A program made the translations under genes and the position numbers. 7,646 nt of DNA, from NCBI GenBank assembly GCA_019136395.1, contig JAGVUH010000475.1, forward strand, positions 1 through 7,646, given 5' to 3'. Below the pieces are notes generated by a model. The model made no database searches, was not told the DNA's origin, and saw only the letters and a program-made list of their open reading frames with translations. Position 1 is the stretch's first letter; every line of letters begins with the position of its first letter. This document shows positions 1 to 7,646 of this stretch, piece after piece. The stretch is from Gammaproteobacteria bacterium (lineage in GTDB: Bacteria; Pseudomonadota; Gammaproteobacteria; Chromatiales; Chromatiaceae).

Positions 1-267
1 ATTACCACCTAAGCCAGCATTTCCACCATTACCGCCACCCGTGGCGATGATCAAGGCTTCGTCATCCAGATCCGTGGGTCTTTGGGGTATGACGAGATTA
101 ACCACCTGGGCGGTGTTCTCCACAACCTTAACCATGACCCCCGCGGGAACTTTTATCCCTTCCTGCTTCAGGGTTTCAGCCGGTTCAGCCAGAAGGCGCT
201 GCTTAAAGTGTTCATCGGCCCAGCACTTGGCGATGATCTGCTGAAAATGTTTGGCTTGCTCGAACAT
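1..267 (-). CDS. NHLP-leader (proteusin-type) RiPP precursor peptide, 3' end outside window
   Basis: The frame opens at ATG 267-265 and stays open for 89 codons to the window edge, so no stop is seen. An AGGAG Shine-Dalgarno lies at 278-274, six bases before the ATG. Residues 1-76 resemble the nitrile hydratase alpha-subunit-like leader (NHLP, TIGR03793 style): an N-terminal helix with AKCWADEHFKQRLLAEP (13-29), then LKQEGIKVPAG, the strand VMVKVVENTAQVVNLVIP and the acidic LDDEALIIATGGG (67-79). The last ends in a Gly-Gly site where C39-type peptidase transporters usually cut. What follows is the core start, G-N-G-G-N-A-G-L-G-G-N, with no Cys, Ser or Thr so far. In known proteusins such leaders guide radical SAM, YcaO or lanthionine enzymes, and polytheonamide-type cores are also rich in Gly and Asn. 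The modification type cannot be told here. Base composition is less GC-rich than the frd genes (32 of the first 60 bases are G or C). A nitrile hydratase subunit is unlikely, because the catalytic Cys region is absent and the protein turns Gly-rich. Confidence 0.85.
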   Translation of the reverse strand, partial: MFEQAKHFQQIIAKCWADEHFKQRLLAEPAETLKQEGIKVPAGVMVKVVENTAQVVNLVIPQRPTDLDDEALIIATGGGNGGNAGLGGN

Positions 268-572
268 TGCTTTCTCCTAGGTGATGACGCGCCTGCGTGG
301 TTGGGGCAATGCGAAGAAGGCGCCATCATACGCATGGCCAAGATTCCAACCGCGGTAAATTATGGCTTCCCACCCGCTGAACGTCTATTGAACCTTGGTA
401 TTACCTGATCCGTAAGGGTTAGCTCCTGTCACTACCAGCGTCGGTCTGGTCAAAGCCTCTGCTTTGTTGACTTTCAGGAGGGTGCCGCTCGTTCAAGTCG
501 CCGGCAGGGTCTTATCGCCCATGCTAACATCCAAGCCATTGTCTTGATTGTCGAGCCCCGCCGCTTGCAGCC
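268..572. other. Intergenic region between the RiPP precursor and the AAA-ATPase remnant
   Basis: I see no convincing gene here on either strand. The left part carries the precursor's Shine-Dalgarno and candidate promoter. A small hairpin, CAAAGC-CTCT-GCTTTG, lies at 451-466 without a following T-run, so it is not a typical terminator. No clear ribosome binding site precedes the ATG at 573. Confidence 0.5.
359..387 (-). promoter_or_regulatory. Candidate sigma70-type promoter of the RiPP precursor gene
   Basis: Read on the minus strand, TAGACG (387-382) and CATAAT (364-359) are 17 bases apart. They match the -35 and -10 consensus at 4/6 and 5/6. Transcription would start near 352, giving a leader of about 85 nt before the precursor ATG. 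This is the best pair I found upstream of the gene, but matches of this quality also occur by chance. Confidence 0.3.
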
Positions 573-1293
573 ATGAACCGCCGTTCCCTGCCCATCGGTA
601 TCCAGACCTTTCGCAAGATCCGCGAGGGGGATTGCTACTATGTCGACAAGACCGGTTTCGCCCTGCGTCTGATCGCGGAGGGCACGCATTACTTCCTCTC
701 TCGCCCGCGACGCTTCGGCAAGTCGCTGTTTCTGGATACGCTGGCGGAACTGTTCAGTGGCAATCAGGCGCTGTTCAAGGGGCTGGAGGCCGAAAGTCGC
801 TGGGACTGGTCGCGGCGTTTCCCGGTGATCCGGCTGAGCTTTGCCGAGGGCGTGCTGCGCAATCGGGCGGAACTCGACGAGAAGATCGCGGAGGTGCTAG
901 CCGAAAACGAGGCACGACTTGAGGTCACCAGCCCCTACCGCAGCCGCTCCGGTCGCCTCCACGGGCTCATCGGCGGGGCCCATGCCCGTCATGGTGAGCG
1001 GGTGGTGGTGCTCGTGGACGAGTATGACAAACCGATCCTGGACAATATCAGCGATCCCGAGACGGCCCGGGCGATGCGCGATGGCCTGCGCGATCTCTAT
1101 TTGGTCATCAAGGGCCAGGATGCGCATATTCGTTTTGCCTTCCTCACCGGGGTCAGCAAGTTCAGCAAGGTCAGCCTGTTCTTGGGGCTGAACAACTTGT
1201 TTGATCTAACCCATTCACCTCATCGGGGTCGAATTCAGCCGCCAGCAGCGCAAGCTGGTGGGCTTCGAGGAGGAGACGCTGGCGGGGGAGTAA
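573..1293 (+). pseudogene. AAA-ATPase-like / PD-(D/E)XK (DUF1703) protein, internally deleted remnant
   Basis: Residues 1-213 read as the N-terminal ATPase domain of the AAA-ATPase-like family (PF09820). The LPIGIQTFRKIREGDCYYVDKT start, the P-loop-like RPRRFGKS (44-51), the Walker-B-like VVVLVDEYDKP (144-154) and the TGVSKFSKVSLF motif (192-203) are all present. Agreement stops after NNLFDLT, near 1211. From 1213 a different frame (+1) reads IHLIGVEFSRQQRKLVGFEE and ends in TAA at 1291-1293. I recognise this as the usual extreme C-terminus of the same family, just after the PD-(D/E)XK nuclease domain. Family members are about 500-550 residues, so roughly 270-300 codons, including the nuclease core, appear to be missing, and the two ends are out of frame. 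The original frame stays open to 2225, but beyond 1211 it only crosses a repeat and the antisense strand of frdB. The family is often multi-copy; its function is not established and is sometimes suggested to be defence-related. Confidence 0.85.
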
Positions 1294-1403
1294 CCGTTCG
1301 GACCCCCTCTCCCCAACCCTCCCCCGCTAGGGGGGGGAGCGAGCGAATCAACGGCTTGTGCTACCTATGCCAGACCAGGCAGCCGGGGGGGTGTGAACAT
1401 TTT
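1292..1403 (+). repeat. GC-rich dispersed hairpin repeat, copy 1
   Basis: Positions 1292-1325 match 5851-5884 with three mismatches and no gaps. The shared core is CTCTCCCCAACCCTCCCCC, followed by a run of G that folds back on it: CTCCCCC at 1319-1325 pairs with GGGGGAG at 1333-1339. A weaker tail is also shared: TTGTGCYACC, then about 30 bases, then GGGGTRTGAACA. The element begins on the stop codon of the AAA-ATPase remnant and lies downstream of frdB, where the hairpin could also help end frd transcription. There is no T-run after the stem. Confidence 0.75.
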
Positions 1404-1421: not shown

Positions 1422-2162
1422 TCACAGGCAGCGCGTCGGGCCGGTCAGGCCTTGGCGCACCATGGCCCGGCGCAGGAAGGCGATCTGGGTCTGGAGGGAC
1501 AGGCCCTTGGGGCAGACGTCATGGCAGCCGAGGAGGCTCATGCAGCCGAAGACCCCGGCGTCGTCGCCGATGACCCGGTAATAGTCCGGTTCCGCGCGTC
1601 GGTCCCGGGGGTCGAGGCGGAAGCGGGCGATCTTATTGAGGCCCACGGCGCCGACGAAGTCCTCGCGCATTTGGGCCGTGCCACAGGCGGCGATGCAGCA
1701 GCCGCATTCGATGCATCGATCCAGTTCGTAGATCTCATCCGCCAGGTCCGGGTCCATCGGCGCCTCGACGGCGTCCAGGTCCGGCTCCCCCTGGAGGTGG
1801 ACCCAGGTCTCCAGGCGCTCGCTCATGGCCCGCATCCATTTGCCGGTGTTCACCGACAGGTCGCCAATCAGCTCGAACACCGGCAGAGGCAGCAGGGTGA
1901 TCTCGGGCGGCAGGCTGGCGGTGAGGGTGCGACAGGCCAGGCCCGGCAGGCCGTTGATGACCATGGCGCAACTGCCGCAGACCCCGGCCCGGCAGACGAA
2001 GTCGAAGGCCAGGCTGGGGTCCTGCTCCTCGCGGATGCGGTTGAGGGCGATGAAGAGGGTCATGCCCGGGGCCTCCTCCAGGGAGTAATCCTGGAGGCGG
2101 GGGACGCTGTTCGGGTTGCCTGGGGTGTGGCGGAAGATGTGAAAGGTCAGGGCACGGCTCAT
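1422..2162 (-). CDS. frdB: Fumarate reductase / succinate dehydrogenase iron-sulfur subunit
   Basis: This 246-residue subunit carries electrons between the cytochrome b membrane anchor and the flavoprotein through three iron-sulfur clusters. The [2Fe-2S] ligands are C57, C62, C65 and C77 (CRAGVCGSC, then a later Cys), the same positions as I recall for Wolinella succinogenes FrdB. The C-terminal ferredoxin-like domain has CIECGCC (150-156), then C160, C207, C213 and C217. By family rules C150, C153, C156 and C217 hold the [4Fe-4S] cluster, and C160, C207 and C213 hold the [3Fe-4S] cluster. The start ATG overlaps the stop of frdA as ATGA, which suggests translational coupling; no strong Shine-Dalgarno is visible. 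It is the last gene of the frdCAB unit. The length is normal and no ligand is missing. Sequence alone cannot fix whether the complex runs mainly as fumarate reductase or as succinate dehydrogenase. Confidence 0.95.
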
Positions 2163-4186
2163 GGGGCACTCTCGGGCGGGGAAGCAGACCTTAGCACGGA
2201 ACTGCGGGCGTTGGGGCCCTGGTAACGGGCGGGGAGCAGGTGGTGGAAGGGCATGAGCCTATCCTGAAGGGTTTGAGCCTCATTGTCCTGGGCGATGGAC
2301 GTCTCCCCCTCACCCCCAGCGCCGCGCAGGGCATCCACCTCCGCCTGGCGGTGGGCGGTGTCGGGATGGTCGAGGATGTCACGGGCGCCGTAACCGCGGA
2401 AGCCCGGTGGCAGTTCCATGGCCCTGACGTCCAGGGGCTCATGGTCCAGGACCGGCAGGTCGCTGCCCTCGGGCCAGTGCAGCAGGGTGCGCTTGAGCCA
2501 GTCGCGGTCGTTGCGGCCCGGGTAATCCTCCCGATAGTGAGCGCCGCGGCTTTCGGTGCGGGCCAGGGCCCCCAGGGCGGCGCCCAGGGCGACCTTTAGC
2601 ATCCGTGGCAGGCGGTAGGCCAGGACCAGCTCCGGATTGGCGCCGGGGTGGGGGTTGCGTACCCCCAGCCGCCGGGCGCGGACCAGCAGCTCCCGCAGCT
2701 CCGTCACCGCCGCCTCCAGGTCCGGCCCCTTGCGGAACAGGCCGACCCGGTCGGTCATCACCCGCTCCATGGCCTGGCGGATGGCGACGGCGTCCTCCTG
2801 ACCCGGCCCCGCCAGCAGGCGCTCCAGGTGGGCCTGTTCGCGGCGCAGGAAGTCCCGCGCCAGCCCGGTGGAGATCTGGATCTGGCCAGCGGGGGAGTCG
2901 CAGAAGTCGGCGACGTACTCGCCCACCAGCATCCCCGCCACCACCGTCTCCGCCACCGAGTTGCCCCCCAGACGGTTGAAACCGTGCAGGTCCCAGCAGG
3001 CAACCTCCCCGCAGGCGAACAGGCCCCGAAGCCAGGGGCTCTGACCCCGATGGTCGGTGCGGATGCCACCCATGGAATAATGCTGGGTGGGGCGGACGGG
3101 AATCAAATCCACCGCCGGGTCGATGCCCAGGAAGTACTGGCAAATCTCCTTGACCTCGCGCAGGTTCTTCTCGATGTGGGCGCGGCCGAGGACGCTAATG
3201 TCCAGCCACAGGTGGTCGCCGAAGGGCCCCTTGACCCCCTTGCCCTTGCGCATATGCTCGGCCATGCGCCGGGAGACCACGTCCCGGGAGGCCAGTTCCT
3301 TCTTCTCCGGCTCGTAGTCGGGCATGAAGCGGTGGCCGTCCACGTCCCGCAGCAGGCCGCCGTCGCCGCGGCAGCCCTCGGTGACCAGGATGCCGGCGGG
3401 GACGATGGCGGTGGGGTGAAACTGCACCGCCTCCAGGTTGGCCAGCCGCGCCACCCCGGTCTCCAGGGCGATCGCCTGGCCGATGCCCTCGTTGATGATG
3501 GCGTTGGTGGAGACCCCCCAGATGCGGCCGAAGCCGCCGGTAGCCATGACCATGGCTCGCGCCAGATAGGCGCGCAAATCCCCGGTCACCAGGTCCCGCA
3601 CCACCGCCCCCTGGCAGCGGTCGCCGTCGTGGATCAGGGCCAGGGCCTCCTGGCGCTCGTGGACCGGGATGGCGGCGGCGATGGCCTGGTCGCTCACGGC
3701 GAAGAGCATGGCGTGGCCGGTGCCATCGGAGGTGTAGCAGGTGCGCCACTTCTTGGTGCCGCCGAAGTCACGGGCGGCGATGAGGCCATGGGCCCGGGAC
3801 GGGACCTGGAAGCTCACCGCCTCGCCGTTGATGAAGGCCTGGCGCTCACCCTGGCGCTCCCGGCTCCAGGGCACCCCCCAGGCCGCCAGTTCCCGCACCG
3901 CCTTGGGGGCCATGTGTGTGAAGAGGCGCGCCACCACCTGGTCGCAGCCCCAGTCGCTGCCGCGCACCGTGTCCTGGAAGTGGACCTCCTCGTTGTCGCC
4001 GAGACTCTTGACCCCATTGGCCAGGCTGGCCTGCATACCCCCCTGGGCCGCCACCGAGTGGGAACGCTTCGGCGGGACCAGGGACAGGATCAGGGTGTCC
4101 AGGCCCCGGCGCTTGACCCCCACCGCGGTGCGCAGGCCGGCGAGACCCCCGCCGATGACCAGGACGTCGGTGTAGAGGATCTTCAT
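2159..4186 (-). CDS. frdA: Fumarate reductase / succinate dehydrogenase flavoprotein subunit
   Basis: This 675-residue catalytic subunit interconverts fumarate and succinate on the cytoplasmic face of the membrane. It has the FAD-binding GGGLAGLR near the N-terminus and the covalent flavin site [11 protein letters not shown] with His43. Active-site residues are His257 in QFHPT, Arg301 in [11 protein letters not shown], His369 in [11 protein letters not shown] and Arg405 in [10 protein letters not shown]. These match Wolinella succinogenes FrdA as I recall it, almost residue for residue, with one extra residue before Arg405. The C-terminal helical domain contains the conserved [14 protein letters not shown]. 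No signal peptide or Tat motif is present, so it is not the periplasmic methylmenaquinol:fumarate reductase type. GGAGG at 4198-4194 lies seven bases before the ATG. The start overlaps the frdC stop and the stop overlaps the frdB start, both as ATGA. All key residues are intact. Confidence 0.96.
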
Positions 4187-5028
4187 GGCCGGGCCTCCGC
4201 CGGGGAAGGTTTGCCAGTTGGGGACGGGCCTGTCTGCGGGGCCATCACATCCGTGGTTGGCTGGGCTGGAATGTCATCAGCGGCCCCGGGCGCGGCCCAT
4301 TCCGGGGTGTAGCGCTCCCCGACCCGGTCGGCATGCTGAACGCCGATCCAGATGTAGGCCCCCAGTGCCAGGAGGCCGACGCCAATGAAGAGGCCGGTCA
4401 AGATCCACTTGCCACGCTTCATGCGTTGTCGGGACCGGGCCGGGTCCTTGCCCATGAACCAGCCCCATTTGAGGGCCAGGCGATAGAGGCCGATACCGCC
4501 ATGCAACTCCACGGCGACGAGCAGCAGCAGATAGAGGGGCCAGAAATGGCCGCTCCAGACGCGGTCAGCGGAGGCATAGGGGCCGATCATCTCCGGGTGC
4601 GCCATCATCTGGTAGAGATGGGCGGGGGCGAGGAAGAAGAGGGCGAAGCCGGTGATCACCTGTAACAGCCACAGCCGGGTGTCGCTATGGGGAAAGCGGT
4701 GGGCATGGCGCCAGAAGGTCCGGTACTGATGCCAGTCGGCGGGAAACTTGCGCAGGGCCAGGACGGCGTGCAGCACCACCAGCGCCAGGATGGCCGCGAC
4801 GATCAGGGACACCAGGAGCGGGAAGGGCCGGCCCAAGATGAAATAGCCCTCGAAAAAGCGGGCAACCGTCCAGAAGGCGTCCTTGCCCAGCAGGATGCTG
4901 GAGACGAAGAGCATGTGCAGCCACATGAACAGGGCCAAAATCAGGCCGGAGGCGCTCTGGATGGCGTCGAGGCGGGCGGGGCAAAAGGAGAGCGACAGGG
5001 GAGCGGCGGATTTCATCGGGCGCGGCAA
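4183..5028 (-). CDS. frdC: Fumarate reductase / succinate dehydrogenase di-haem cytochrome b subunit
   Basis: This is the membrane anchor that oxidises or reduces the quinone, with about five transmembrane helices. Numbering from the ATG at 5016, the four expected haem-ligand histidines are present: H34 (WLHMLFV), H83 ([12 protein letters not shown]), H133 (PAHLYQMM) and H172 ([11 protein letters not shown]). The two glutamates that matter in Wolinella FrdC, equivalent to E66 and E180, are E56 (FFEGYFI) and E170. This marks a type B, single-anchor, two-haem enzyme. I chose TTG 5028 because AGGA at 5040-5037 sits eight bases upstream. ATG 5016 is a close alternative, 12 bases further in. The in-frame ATG at 5082 is unlikely because it lies inside the FNR-type box and upstream of the predicted transcription start. 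The C-terminal tail is rich in Pro and Ala and looks disordered. The stop overlaps frdA as ATGA. Confidence 0.93.
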
Positions 5029-5038
5029 CTTTAGTGTC

Positions 5039-5242
5039 CTAGAACATGCTGAAATTCTTATATTTAAGGGCCGCGTTGACATTGATTTCCGTCAATGGAA
5101 TCGCGTGGTCGAAAATGATCCGCCCGGTCATGCGGGCTTGTCGGCACCCGCCGGACCCCCCGTGGAAAAAGATGAGTGTCGCGCCGATCAAGATGAATCC
5201 CGCGGCAAATGCCGAGCGGTAAGCCGCATGCAATGCCTGCAA
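5039..5242 (-). CDS. Doubtful small ORF with one hydrophobic segment, or a gene-tail remnant
   Basis: A 67-codon frame starts at TTG 5242, with GGAG at 5254-5251 eight bases upstream. It has one hydrophobic stretch, AFAAGFILIGATLIFF (12-27), then a Gly-rich turn. The frame is also open for about 28 codons upstream of the TTG, with no ATG or GTG there. This would fit the degraded tail of a longer membrane protein such as a transporter. Its 3' part contains the FNR-type box and -10 region of frdC, which argues against a conserved protein. I recognise no family, and the rest of 5096-5353 shows no other gene. Confidence 0.2.
   Translation of the reverse strand: MQALHAAYRSAFAAGFILIGATLIFFHGGSGGCRQARMTGRIIFDHAIPLTEINVNAALKYKNFSMF
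5057..5095 (-). promoter_or_regulatory. FNR/Anr-type operator and -10 box of the frdCAB operon
   Basis: The plus-strand bases 5082-5095 read TTGATTTCCGTCAA, which matches the FNR consensus TTGAT-N4-ATCAA at nine of ten defined positions. The surrounding palindrome is CATTGA-N6-TCAATG (5080-5097). On the minus strand TATAAG (5062-5057) and the overlapping TAAGAA (5060-5055) can serve as -10. Transcription would start near 5048-5050, placing the operator about 38-41 bases upstream, close to the class II activating position of FNR (-41.5). Activation without oxygen is the expected logic for a fumarate reductase operon. Confidence 0.7.
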
Positions 5243-5353: not shown

Positions 5354-5758
5354 CTACTCGATCCAGTCGATGAGGTGATGAGTCAAGGGTCCGGCCTGAT
5401 CCGGGGGAATCACCCGCCCGGCGACGGAATGACCGGCGCGGTGGACGGAGTCGGGGTCGCCGCTGAGCAGGGGATGCCAGTTGGGCAAGGGTTCGCCCTG
5501 ACGCAGCAGGCGGTAGGCGCAGGTAGCGGGGAGCCAGCGCGGGTAGGCGATGGTCGCCGGAGTGAGCTCAATGCAATCATGCACCAGGCGGGAGCGATGG
5601 GCGTAGTTACGACAGGTCCCGGTGTCCGGGTCGAGGAGTTTGCAGGCCACGTTGGTGTAGAAGATCCGACCCGTCTCCTCCTCCTCCCACTGTTCAGGGC
5701 TCATGTCGTTCAGCGGGGTGGTTTCCCAGAAGCGGGGGGAGGAAGGGACAAGGCTCAC
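5354..5758 (-). CDS. YcgN/UPF0260 family protein with internal deletion of its CxxCxxCC cluster
   Basis: The protein matches E. coli YcgN (UPF0260, YkgJ-like putative Zn/Fe-binding family) along most of its length: FWETTPLNDMSPEQWE, FYTNVACKLLD, CRNYAHRSRLVHDCIELT, WLPATCAYRLL, LPNWHPLLSGDPDSVH, and a C-terminal DWIE. In the family, QWE is followed by about 15 residues of the type SLCDGCGxCCLHKLED before ETG. Here QWE runs straight into EEETG, so the four clustered cysteines are gone while the frame is kept. Cysteines in VACK, TCRNY, HDCIEL and TCAY remain. I chose GTG 5758 because family members begin a few residues before FW and because a good -10 box overlaps the earlier TTG at 5797. No strong Shine-Dalgarno is seen. 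If the deletion is real, the metal site is probably lost and this may be a pseudogene. The family's role is not well established. Confidence 0.8.
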   Translation of the reverse strand: MSLVPSSPRFWETTPLNDMSPEQWEEEETGRIFYTNVACKLLDPDTGTCRNYAHRSRLVHDCIELTPATIAYPRWLPATCAYRLLRQGEPLPNWHPLLSGDPDSVHRAGHSVAGRVIPPDQAGPLTHHLIDWIE

Positions 5759-5786
5759 GGCTAACGGAGAAATCTCGCTGGTGTTG

Positions 5787-5807
5787 CGGGTAGACAAAGT
5801 ATACCCG
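5787..5807 (-). promoter_or_regulatory. Imperfect palindrome over the candidate -10 box of the ycgN-like gene
   Basis: The arms CGGGTAGAC (5787-5795) and GTATACCCG (5799-5807) flank AAA and are complementary at eight of nine positions. On the minus strand the palindrome contains TATACT (5803-5798), a good -10 match. CGGACA lies 16 bases further upstream as a weak -35. A protein bound to the palindrome would block this promoter, so it may be an operator. No regulator gene is in the window and I cannot name the family. Confidence 0.4.
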
Positions 5808-5850
5808 ACGCCCTGGGGTTGTCCGCCTCATCGAGGAGGAGACTCACCGT

Positions 5851-5962
5851 ACCCGTTCAGCCCCCCTCTCCCCAACCCTCCCCCACCAGGGGGGAGGGAG
5901 TAGGAAAGTCAGCCCCTTGTGCCACCAAAACCCTCATCGTGCGCGAGGGGTATGAACAATTA
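5851..5962 (+). repeat. GC-rich dispersed hairpin repeat, copy 2
   Basis: This is the same element, in the same orientation, as the one at 1292-1403. The hairpin is stronger here: CCCTCCCCC at 5876-5884 pairs perfectly with GGGGGAGGG at 5890-5898 around the loop ACCAG. The tail TTGTGCCACC and GGGGTATGAACA are also recognisable. It lies between the promoter regions of the ycgN-like gene and the GTPase gene. C-rich elements of this kind are common in intergenic DNA of GC-rich proteobacteria and often give spurious Pro/Ser-rich reading frames. Confidence 0.75.
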
Positions 5963-6027
5963 CGACTCACCAAGCCTTGTTTTGTCCTGTCTCAATCATG
6001 TCTTATTTATCATTGCCCCCTTTCCGG

Positions 6028-6069
6028 GTTCTAGGTTCTGTGTTCTGGGCTCTGGGATGTGGGTTTGGG
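6028..6069 (+). repeat. Degenerate 7-bp tandem repeat, about six units
   Basis: The motif GTTCT recurs at 6028, 6035 and 6042, with GCTCT at 6049, an exact seven-base period. Two further units at 6056 and 6063 keep the G-rich ends but drift from the consensus GTTCTGG. The array is purely intergenic and GT-rich on the plus strand. It resembles the short heptamer repeats seen in some bacterial intergenic regions; I infer no function. Confidence 0.6.
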
Positions 6070-6111
6070 TTCGGGATCCCGAGTTGGTCCACATCCTGTC
6101 CGAACCCGCCG

Positions 6112-6149
6112 GGTAGCCAGGCCGTGACGGGCCTGGCTACCTGTATAAT
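6112..6149 (+). promoter_or_regulatory. Perfect 12-bp inverted repeat followed by TATAAT, probable GTPase gene promoter
   Basis: GGTAGCCAGGCC (6112-6123) and GGCCTGGCTACC (6130-6141) are perfect complements around GTGACG. Two bases later comes a consensus -10, TATAAT (6144-6149), which puts transcription start near 6156, about 36 bases before the GTG start of the GTPase gene. The right arm occupies the -35 to -15 zone. The -35 itself is poor: GTGACG matches 4/6 but is only 14 bases away. The layout suggests a repressor or activator site. A terminator is less likely, as neither strand has a T-run after the stem. Confidence 0.5.
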
Positions 6150-6191
6150 GCCGGTCCTCTTCCCGATCCGACCGTTCCTCAGACAACACCC

Positions 6192-7646
6192 GTGAGTTCG
6201 CCGCCGAGCGCTTCCCGACTGATCCGCATCGCCCTCGGCCTGGGGATCGCGCTGCTGACGCTGTTGATTCTCTGGGTCTTGCTGTCCCTGACCGATCAGA
6301 TTCTGTCGGTGTGGCAGGGCCTGGTAAGCTTGCCTGACTGGGTCTTCTGGTTCTACGGCCTGGCCCTCCTGGGCATCCTGATGGCGGGGGGCTATGCCCT
6401 GTGGCGGTTGCTTCGCCCCCGCCGCGCCGGCCCCACCACCCGCGAGGCAACGCTGGATCGCGAGACCCTCGAACGACGCCTGGAGGAAGACGCCGCCGCC
6501 GGCATCGATATCGCTGCCGTCCGCCGTGAGCTGGCCCTGTTGCAGCAGCGCAAGGCGGCGGGGCGTATCCATGTCAGCTTCTTTGGCGAGATCAGCAGTG
6601 GCAAGTCCAGTCTGATCAAGGCCTTGCTGCCGGAAGCGGTGCTGGAGACCAGCGCCGTCGGCGGTACGACCCGCGAGATCGCCGCCTATGCCTGGCACAG
6701 CCCCAGTGGCGACGAGCTGATCCTCACCGACATGCCCGGCACCAACGAGGTCGGTCAGGGGCTCGACGATATGGCCCGGGCCGAGGCCCTGCGCTCCCAC
6801 CTGGTGGTCTATGTCTGCGACGGGGACCTGAGCCGCACCCAATACCAGGAACTCCAGGCCCTGCGGGAACTCGGCAAGCCCCTGATCGTCGCCCTCAACA
6901 AGACCGACCGCTACCGGCGCGAGGAACTGGACTTGCTGCGGGACCGCCTCGCCGAGCGGCTGGCGGAGGAGGTCAGCCGGGAAACTGGCCCTGGCCGGGG
7001 CCGGCGGCGGCGCGGTGCCCAGCGCGGGGTGGACCTGGTGGCCGTCCAGGCGGGGGGTCGCCGGGAGGTCCTGGTGGTCGGTCCGGACGGCACGGAACGG
7101 ACCGAGGTTCGTGACCTGTCGCCCCGGGTGGATGAACTGCGCGAGGCCCTGCAACGGCATCTGGACGAGGACCCGGCGGTTCTGGAAAAGCTGTGCGACA
7201 CCAGCGTCTTTGTCCTGGTGGCGAGGCGTCTGGACGAAGCGGAGCGGGCCTACCGGACTCAGCGCGCTCAGGAACTGACCGTTTCCTATTCCCGCAAGGC
7301 CATGATCGGCGCCATGGCGGCGGTGGCGCCGGGCTCGGATCTCATCATCCAGGGCTATCTGGGCATCGCCCTGGTCAAGGAGCTATCGGCCCTCTACCAG
7401 GTCCCCGTGCGGGAGATGGACACCGACCTGCTGCTGGAACTGGCGCGCAAGCGGGTCGCCCGCCATGCCACCATCATCCTGGCGGTGGCCGGCAACGCCC
7501 TGAAGGCCTTCCCCGGCGTGGGCACCCTGGTTGGCGGTCTGGCCCAGGCGGTGGCCTATGGCATGATCTTCGAGGCCCTGGGCAAGGCGGTGGCCCAGTC
7601 CCTGGAATCCCGGGGGGCCCTGCGGCCCGCCCAAGCGGCGCAAGTC
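6192..7646 (+). CDS. Membrane-anchored Era-like GTPase with C-terminal DUF697 domain, 3' end outside window
   Basis: The frame runs from GTG 6192 for 485 codons to the window edge without a stop. The N-terminus has two hydrophobic segments (about 10-33 and 50-74), then an Arg-rich, helical linker. The GTPase domain follows: G1 GEISSGKSS (132-140), a switch-I threonine in VGGTTRE, G3 DMPG (180-183) and G4 NKTD (236-239). VAVQAGG is a likely degenerate G5. Before it lies an unusual basic insertion, GPGRGRRRR, after the G4 helix. From about residue 364 the sequence reads as DUF697 (SRKAMIGAMAAVAPGSDLI, then AFPGVGTLVGG), a family found on the C-terminal side of bacterial Era/YcjX-like GTPases. 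The role is not established; a membrane-linked or stress-related switch is a guess. No Shine-Dalgarno precedes the GTG, so the exact start is uncertain, but the hydrophobic N-terminus begins right after it. Confidence 0.85.
   Translation, partial: MSSPPSASRLIRIALGLGIALLTLLILWVLLSLTDQILSVWQGLVSLPDWVFWFYGLALLGILMAGGYALWRLLRPRRAGPTTREATLDRETLERRLEEDAAAGIDIAAVRRELALLQQRKAAGRIHVSFFGEISSGKSSLIKALLPEAVLETSAVGGTTREIAAYAWHSPSGDELILTDMPGTNEVGQGLDDMARAEALRSHLVVYVCDGDLSRTQYQELQALRELGKPLIVALNKTDRYRREELDLLRDRLAERLAEEVSRETGPGRGRRRRGAQRGVDLVAVQAGGRREVLVVGPDGTERTEVRDLSPRVDELREALQRHLDEDPAVLEKLCDTSVFVLVARRLDEAERAYRTQRAQELTVSYSRKAMIGAMAAVAPGSDLIIQGYLGIALVKELSALYQVPVREMDTDLLLELARKRVARHATIILAVAGNALKAFPGVGTLVGGLAQAVAYGMIFEALGKAVAQSLESRGALRPAQAAQV

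Follow-up and report, generated by a model that had tools for sequence, protein, structure and literature searches.

An NHLP-type precursor gene with a Gly/Asn triplet-repeat core in a bacterium close to Candidatus Thiosymbion, and its putative methyltransferase and exporter partners

What is encoded at the left edge of contig JAGVUH010000475.1 (assembly GCA_019136395.1), a 7,646-nucleotide stretch of Chromatiaceae DNA that we call the window? On the minus strand, positions 1..267 hold the 5' part of a gene for an NHLP-type precursor of a ribosomally synthesized and post-translationally modified peptide (RiPP); the frame, 267..1, runs through 89 codons without a stop until the window edge truncates it, and a Shine-Dalgarno-like AGGAG lies 6 bases 5' of the ATG (274..278, minus strand). 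Residues 1-78 (34..267, minus strand) form the leader, which matches TIGR03793 over residues 5-78 with 89.8 bits (E 7.6e-26; curated cut-off 50.9); its residues 8-60 also match PF02979, the model for nitrile hydratase alpha, with 39.5 bits. Residues 77, 78 and 79 are Gly; the Gly77-Gly78 pair closes the leader and a variable core comes next, its first 11 residues (79-89, GNGGNAGLGGN; 1..33, minus strand) being read from the sequence and completed in the three database proteins described below. An earlier note made from the letters of the window had called an NHLP/proteusin-type precursor in this frame, with a clean Shine-Dalgarno sequence, a Gly-Gly boundary at residues 77-79 and this very core start, and all of these calls held.

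The database protein P0001 (125 residues), which may stem from the same sample as the window, equals 88 of the 89 visible residues (the exception is E28D) and supplies the remainder of the gene. Because of this match and this completion, the precursor gene is confirmed, at the level of sequence, as real and not a chance frame. P0002 (133 residues) and P0003 (128 residues) are two more close relatives, and the cores of the three differ in length and repeats. Similarly, a Candidatus Thiosymbion locus, L001, keeps the precursor frame; its copy scores 91.1 bits against TIGR03793, and its first 77 codons differ from those of the window by 14 synonymous and 11 non-synonymous codon changes (dN 0.070, dS 0.405, dN/dS about 0.17). 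In the relatives there is no stop just past the position of the window edge and no continuation into a nitrile hydratase, and TIGR03793 is matched. The earlier note had also held that overlapping frames on the opposite strand are longer than the precursor; this is correct for the visible 89 residues, which the 108-residue frame at 82..408 exceeds, and incorrect for the complete 125.

The core is unusual in composition and period. After position 78 there are 47, 55 and 50 residues in P0001, P0002 and P0003, of which 26, 29 and 29 are Gly and 11, 11 and 10 are Asn. Each core has a single Trp, one or two Ser/Thr, and no Lys, Arg, Asp, Glu, His or Cys; the earlier note had seen the lack of Cys in the first 11 residues. 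The segment GGNAGGN(G/A)GLNW(S/F/L)GGNGG is common to all three, and the remainder is variable. Non-Gly core residues are spaced by three: lag-3 pairs number 14, 19 and 15, compared with means of 8.2, 11.0 and 7.7 after shuffling (P 0.0006, 0/5000 and 0/5000), although the three proteins are related and these statistics are not three independent tests. Lag 6 is likewise elevated, and the remaining lags within 1-8 are not raised. An alternating D/L beta-helix was considered for the product and rejected, the period of the core being 3 and not 2.

How rare is such a core? A profile search with ten sequences found 1629 NHLP proteins among 7987 scored candidates, the best 120 of which were used; together with the relatives from sequence searches, 122 proteins were compared. 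With the exclusion of 16 of the 122 whose tails are shorter than 10 residues, a tail at least half Gly was found in 3 of 106, namely P0001-P0003; in proteins with tandem leaders the tail counted after position 78 includes the second leader. Matches of about 190 residues were at one point taken for Gly-rich relatives and were dropped, since most of the 26 long proteins that were read (P0013-P0053, 156-233 residues) carry two tandem leaders before a single core. In the family to which the Thiosymbion genome belongs, an NHLP leader exceeds the cut-off in 15 of 194 genomes (26 of 194 at E 1e-3). Among 19 loci of this family, 18 gave a leader frame, L028 being the exception; one or two places were read where a genome has several precursors, and the core was Gly-rich in 1 of these 18 frames, that of Thiosymbion. 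A scan of viral contigs with P0001 returned no relative. Likewise, tblastn against plasmids gave matches to the leader portion only, some within nitrile hydratase genes and none covering 80% of the query; near the match on a Thiodictyon plasmid there is a gene of the ATP-binding cassette kind, and no methyltransferase is annotated. Among the paper titles listed in literature searches none concerns a proteusin with a glycine-rich core, and the one listed for Thiosymbion together with RiPPs deals with microbial mats; this is not proof of absence in print.

L001, on a 33-kb contig of a Candidatus Thiosymbion metagenome-assembled genome (G001), is the single relative of the locus found in the genome collection. 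As far as base 4896, aligned blocks at 84-92% identity show the gene order of the window again, with the genes for the cytochrome, the flavoprotein and the iron-sulfur protein of quinol:fumarate reductase, then an AAA-ATPase gene remnant and the precursor. Past the counterpart of the window edge, L001 encodes a class I methyltransferase of 424 residues (5521-6795) and, facing it, NHLM ABC2, NHLM ABC1 with a C39 peptidase domain, and NHLM HlyD, all three above their curated cut-offs (TIGR03794/03796/03797); the methyltransferase thus lies between precursor and exporter genes. The earlier note had placed the pathway to the left of the window, and it is on that side that these genes stand in L001. 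By analogy, the exporter and the methyltransferase would neighbor the precursor in the window's own genome as well. Across the genus, the precursor and an NHLM ABC2 above cut-off occur in the same one of four genomes; the absences are weak, because one of the other three genomes is only 2.6 Mb. A promoter and terminator scan of L001 gave results at chance level. Third-position GC in L001 is 0.31 in the core (55 codons), 0.69 in the leader and 0.64 in the methyltransferase gene, whereas the exporter and fumarate reductase genes reach 0.82-0.92. Precursor and methyltransferase thus deviate from their neighbors in one direction; this is consistent with joint acquisition or with recent growth of the repeats, and proves neither.

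Elsewhere in the window, an ordinary three-gene quinol:fumarate reductase/succinate dehydrogenase set (iron-sulfur, flavoprotein, membrane cytochrome) occupies 1422-5082 on the minus strand and is 89-92% identical to L001 in aligned blocks. On the plus strand, the frame 573-2225 has a complete PF09820 AAA-ATPase-like domain at its residues 7-203 and then runs antisense over the iron-sulfur gene; this frame, an apparent gene remnant, aligns over about 180 bp with L001 4329-4510. A short dispersed repeat occurs at window 1279-1362 and 5848-5898 and at L001 5327-5414 (82-88% identical). Finally, a small protein at 5354-5797 (minus) matches CxxCxxCC (PF03692) barely above cut-off, and a GTPase with MMR_HSR1 and a weak DUF697 match begins at 6192 (6192-7646, plus) and is truncated by the right edge.

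The methyltransferase is predicted to adopt the fold of Rv2067c and the protein lysine methyltransferases (PKMTs), and Rv2067c is 38% identical to it. Genes of this kind are uncommon in the class. Our methyltransferase set comprised the L001 protein and 37 relatives listed among the best 120, and a further comparison comprised 34 chosen database proteins and the L001 protein. In hhalign, the C-terminal stretch of the enzyme matches PqqD at 95% over 55 columns (E 4e-8 for the single comparison); the controls gave 0.25% for the C-terminal region with MarR, 0.57% and 0.16% for the catalytic domain with PqqD and MarR, and 21.6% for PqqD with MarR. The input consisted of 19 of 25 PqqD loci, 13 of 20 MarR loci and 36 of 38 methyltransferase rows. 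The model of this stretch places a short helix (331-334) before strands at 336-339, 344-347, 357-361 and 364-368, predicted helices at 370-377, 385-392 and 399-415, and a last strand at 419-422. The structure 8HKR figures in a list used in PMC12710340 for judging RiPP recognition element hits. We propose that the PqqD-like stretch could bind the leader.

Enzymes for other chemistries were sought in G001, the draft genome of the relative, which stands in for that of the window. It has 21 radical S-adenosylmethionine (SAM) matches, 0 of 21 on the L001 contig, and no match to YcaO or LanC (LANC_like). Ten further frames of the L001 contig, searched at E 1e-6, either had no match or matched domains for transport, signalling, channels, sulfatase or PIN, with no maturase among them. 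Since the core is free of Cys and no such enzyme is matched, these results speak against azolines, lanthionines and any radical SAM chemistry encoded in the cluster, none of which the sequences support. Among the maturation chemistries that the earlier note had discussed, azolines, lanthionines and radical SAM epimerisation or crosslinking find no support in the draft genome of the relative, and methylation stays a candidate; as a whole its interpretation is partly supported.

We propose that the window gene probably specifies the precursor to a ribosomal peptide, leader-guided and secreted, of a bacterium near Candidatus Thiosymbion, and that the methyltransferase and the NHLM proteins handle this precursor. 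The leader family, the composition and period of the core, the L001 neighborhood, the predicted fold of the enzyme and the PqqD-like profile match are the results on which this proposal stands. The nitrile hydratase-like leader would pass the chain to partner proteins, and the PqqD-like end of the PKMT/Rv2067c-type methyltransferase, the sole candidate tailoring enzyme, could bind this leader. The core would then be methylated, most plausibly by N-methylation of Asn side chains, a target suggested by a core that lacks Lys and has 10-11 Asn; methylation at Lys was rejected for the core, which has none. The C39 peptidase of NHLM ABC1 would cleave after Gly-Gly. With the help of NHLM ABC2 and the HlyD-type protein, the product would be exported: an uncharged chain some 47-55 residues long, built on Gly-Gly-X triplets with X mostly Asn. 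We infer the cleavage, the export, the methylation with its target, and any three-residue helix of the product.

A number of observations weigh against this proposal. The nearest solved relatives of the enzyme are protein lysine methyltransferases and the core lacks Lys, so its substrate may be the leader or another molecule. Its family is large (3464 matches among 7998 scored candidates), a RiPP link is not established for the family, and the counts by genome draw on at most four scored candidates per genome among the matches listed. In the one relative's neighborhood that was read, on a Pseudanabaena plasmid, no NHLP is annotated. No PqqD model is among the 25 of 27 Pfam families listed for the 38 methyltransferase relatives. 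At L001 itself the methyltransferase starts 473 bases past the precursor with a dispersed repeat between them, and the link between the two genes comes from this one locus; the window ends inside its precursor gene. Finally, AlphaFold models helices in the leader and leaves the core unstructured (pLDDT 35-41). Because it gives no model of the core, a polyglycine II-like helix is suggested by the triplets alone.

Could the peptide instead be exported unmodified, as a Gly/Asn-rich structural or bacteriocin-like product that borrows an NHLP leader and an NHLM exporter while the methyltransferase acts elsewhere? That the methyltransferase is the sole tailoring enzyme among the frames examined near L001 would suit this explanation, as would cores that lack Cys and Lys and offer one or two Ser/Thr each, and an enzyme whose relatives are many and whose closest solved ones methylate protein lysine. 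However, an enzyme uncommon in the class, placed between precursor and exporters and ending in a PqqD-like stretch, is poorly accounted for, and we regard unmodified export as possible but rather unlikely. Far less probable is a true polytheonamide-type proteusin, epimerised or crosslinked by radical SAM enzymes from elsewhere in the genome. The radical SAM matches in G001 could supply such enzymes, and an Asn-rich core recalls the methylated Asn of polytheonamide described in PMC11285071; yet none of the 21 lies on the 33-kb contig, the ten further frames hold no maturase, and few residues would be open to epimerisation because Gly is achiral.

Likewise, we give very little credence, the least of all, to the idea that the core is low-complexity sequence, in decay or arisen by chance, that trails an old leader and yields no product. 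The variation of the core repeats among P0001-P0003, the low third-position GC of the L001 core beside that of the fumarate reductase and NHLM genes, and the ATPase-gene remnant adjoining the precursor are what decay might leave. The constrained leader (the dN/dS given above) speaks against it, as do a frame kept through three variable cores and the segment conserved in all of them.

How does the proposed pathway, in which methyltransferase and NHLM proteins handle the precursor, compare with known systems? With NHLP/proteusin precursors (TIGR03793) it shares the leader resembling nitrile hydratase alpha, the Gly-Gly site and, in L001, the adjoining NHLM trio; its core is a long Cys-free Gly-Gly-X array, whereas many NHLP cores described in Haft et al. 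2010 (PMC2887384) are rich in Cys, Ser and Thr and lie beside TOMM or LanM enzymes. TOMM (azoline) and lanthipeptide NHLPs differ further, given cores with 0 Cys and a draft G001 that matches neither YcaO nor LANC_like. Polytheonamide and aeronamide likewise combine a proteusin precursor, an Asn-rich core and a SAM methyltransferase gene, and in polytheonamide eight Asn are methylated by PoyE, stabilising the helix (PMC11285071). The L001 contig has no radical SAM match, trans-acting enzymes being possible, and where those pathways have the Asn N-methyltransferases PoyE and AerE, the enzyme here is of the PKMT/Rv2067c type. Rv2067c (PDB 8HKR) and rickettsial PKMT1/2 differ from it in setting: here the gene has an NHLP precursor on one side and NHLM exporters on the other, and the putative substrate is a core without Lys. 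A relative of 402 residues at 8016-9224 of the Pseudanabaena plasmid locus, 30% identical over 311 columns, adjoins cpcA and cpcB. This placement is a further hint of Asn methylation and no more: identity with the CpcM-type Asn methyltransferase is not established for that gene, and Rv2067c is closer to our enzyme (38% vs 30%).

Other Gly-rich systems bear comparison. PE_PGRS proteins are Gly-Gly-X repeat proteins, and they and spider silk resemble the core in their Gly-Gly-X-rich triplet repeats; here the repeat spans about 50 residues behind a RiPP leader, and the likeness drawn is one of repeat pattern. In GrrA/OscA-type RiPPs, too, the core is a Gly-rich repeat that contains Asn and an aromatic residue. 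Among the NCBIfam matches listed for the window and L001 precursors there is no such family, and no radical SAM match lies on the contig.

Leader and exporter are thus of a known kind, while the type of core and its pairing with a PKMT-type methyltransferase appear new, as judged from one full locus and three precursor sequences. A bolder proposal, which we consider improbable as it stands and offer as speculation, is a new RiPP subclass in which a PKMT/Rv2067c-type enzyme, guided by its own PqqD-like domain, would methylate the Asn side chains of a charge-free (Gly-Gly-X)n core, and the exported peptide, a hydrogen-bonded, polyglycine II-like three-residue helix, would be used by an animal symbiont at its surface or against competitors.

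For RiPP mining, searches for NHLP cores rich in Cys, Ser and Thr could miss a Gly/Asn core such as this one. If the enzyme acts on the core, a family with protein lysine methyltransferases as its solved members would gain a RiPP branch, and its PqqD-like end a purpose. Members of the Candidatus Thiosymbion lineage are worm-associated sulfur symbionts of animals; in this lineage the locus would provide a secreted repeat peptide from a small gene set of a precursor, one enzyme and three exporter genes.
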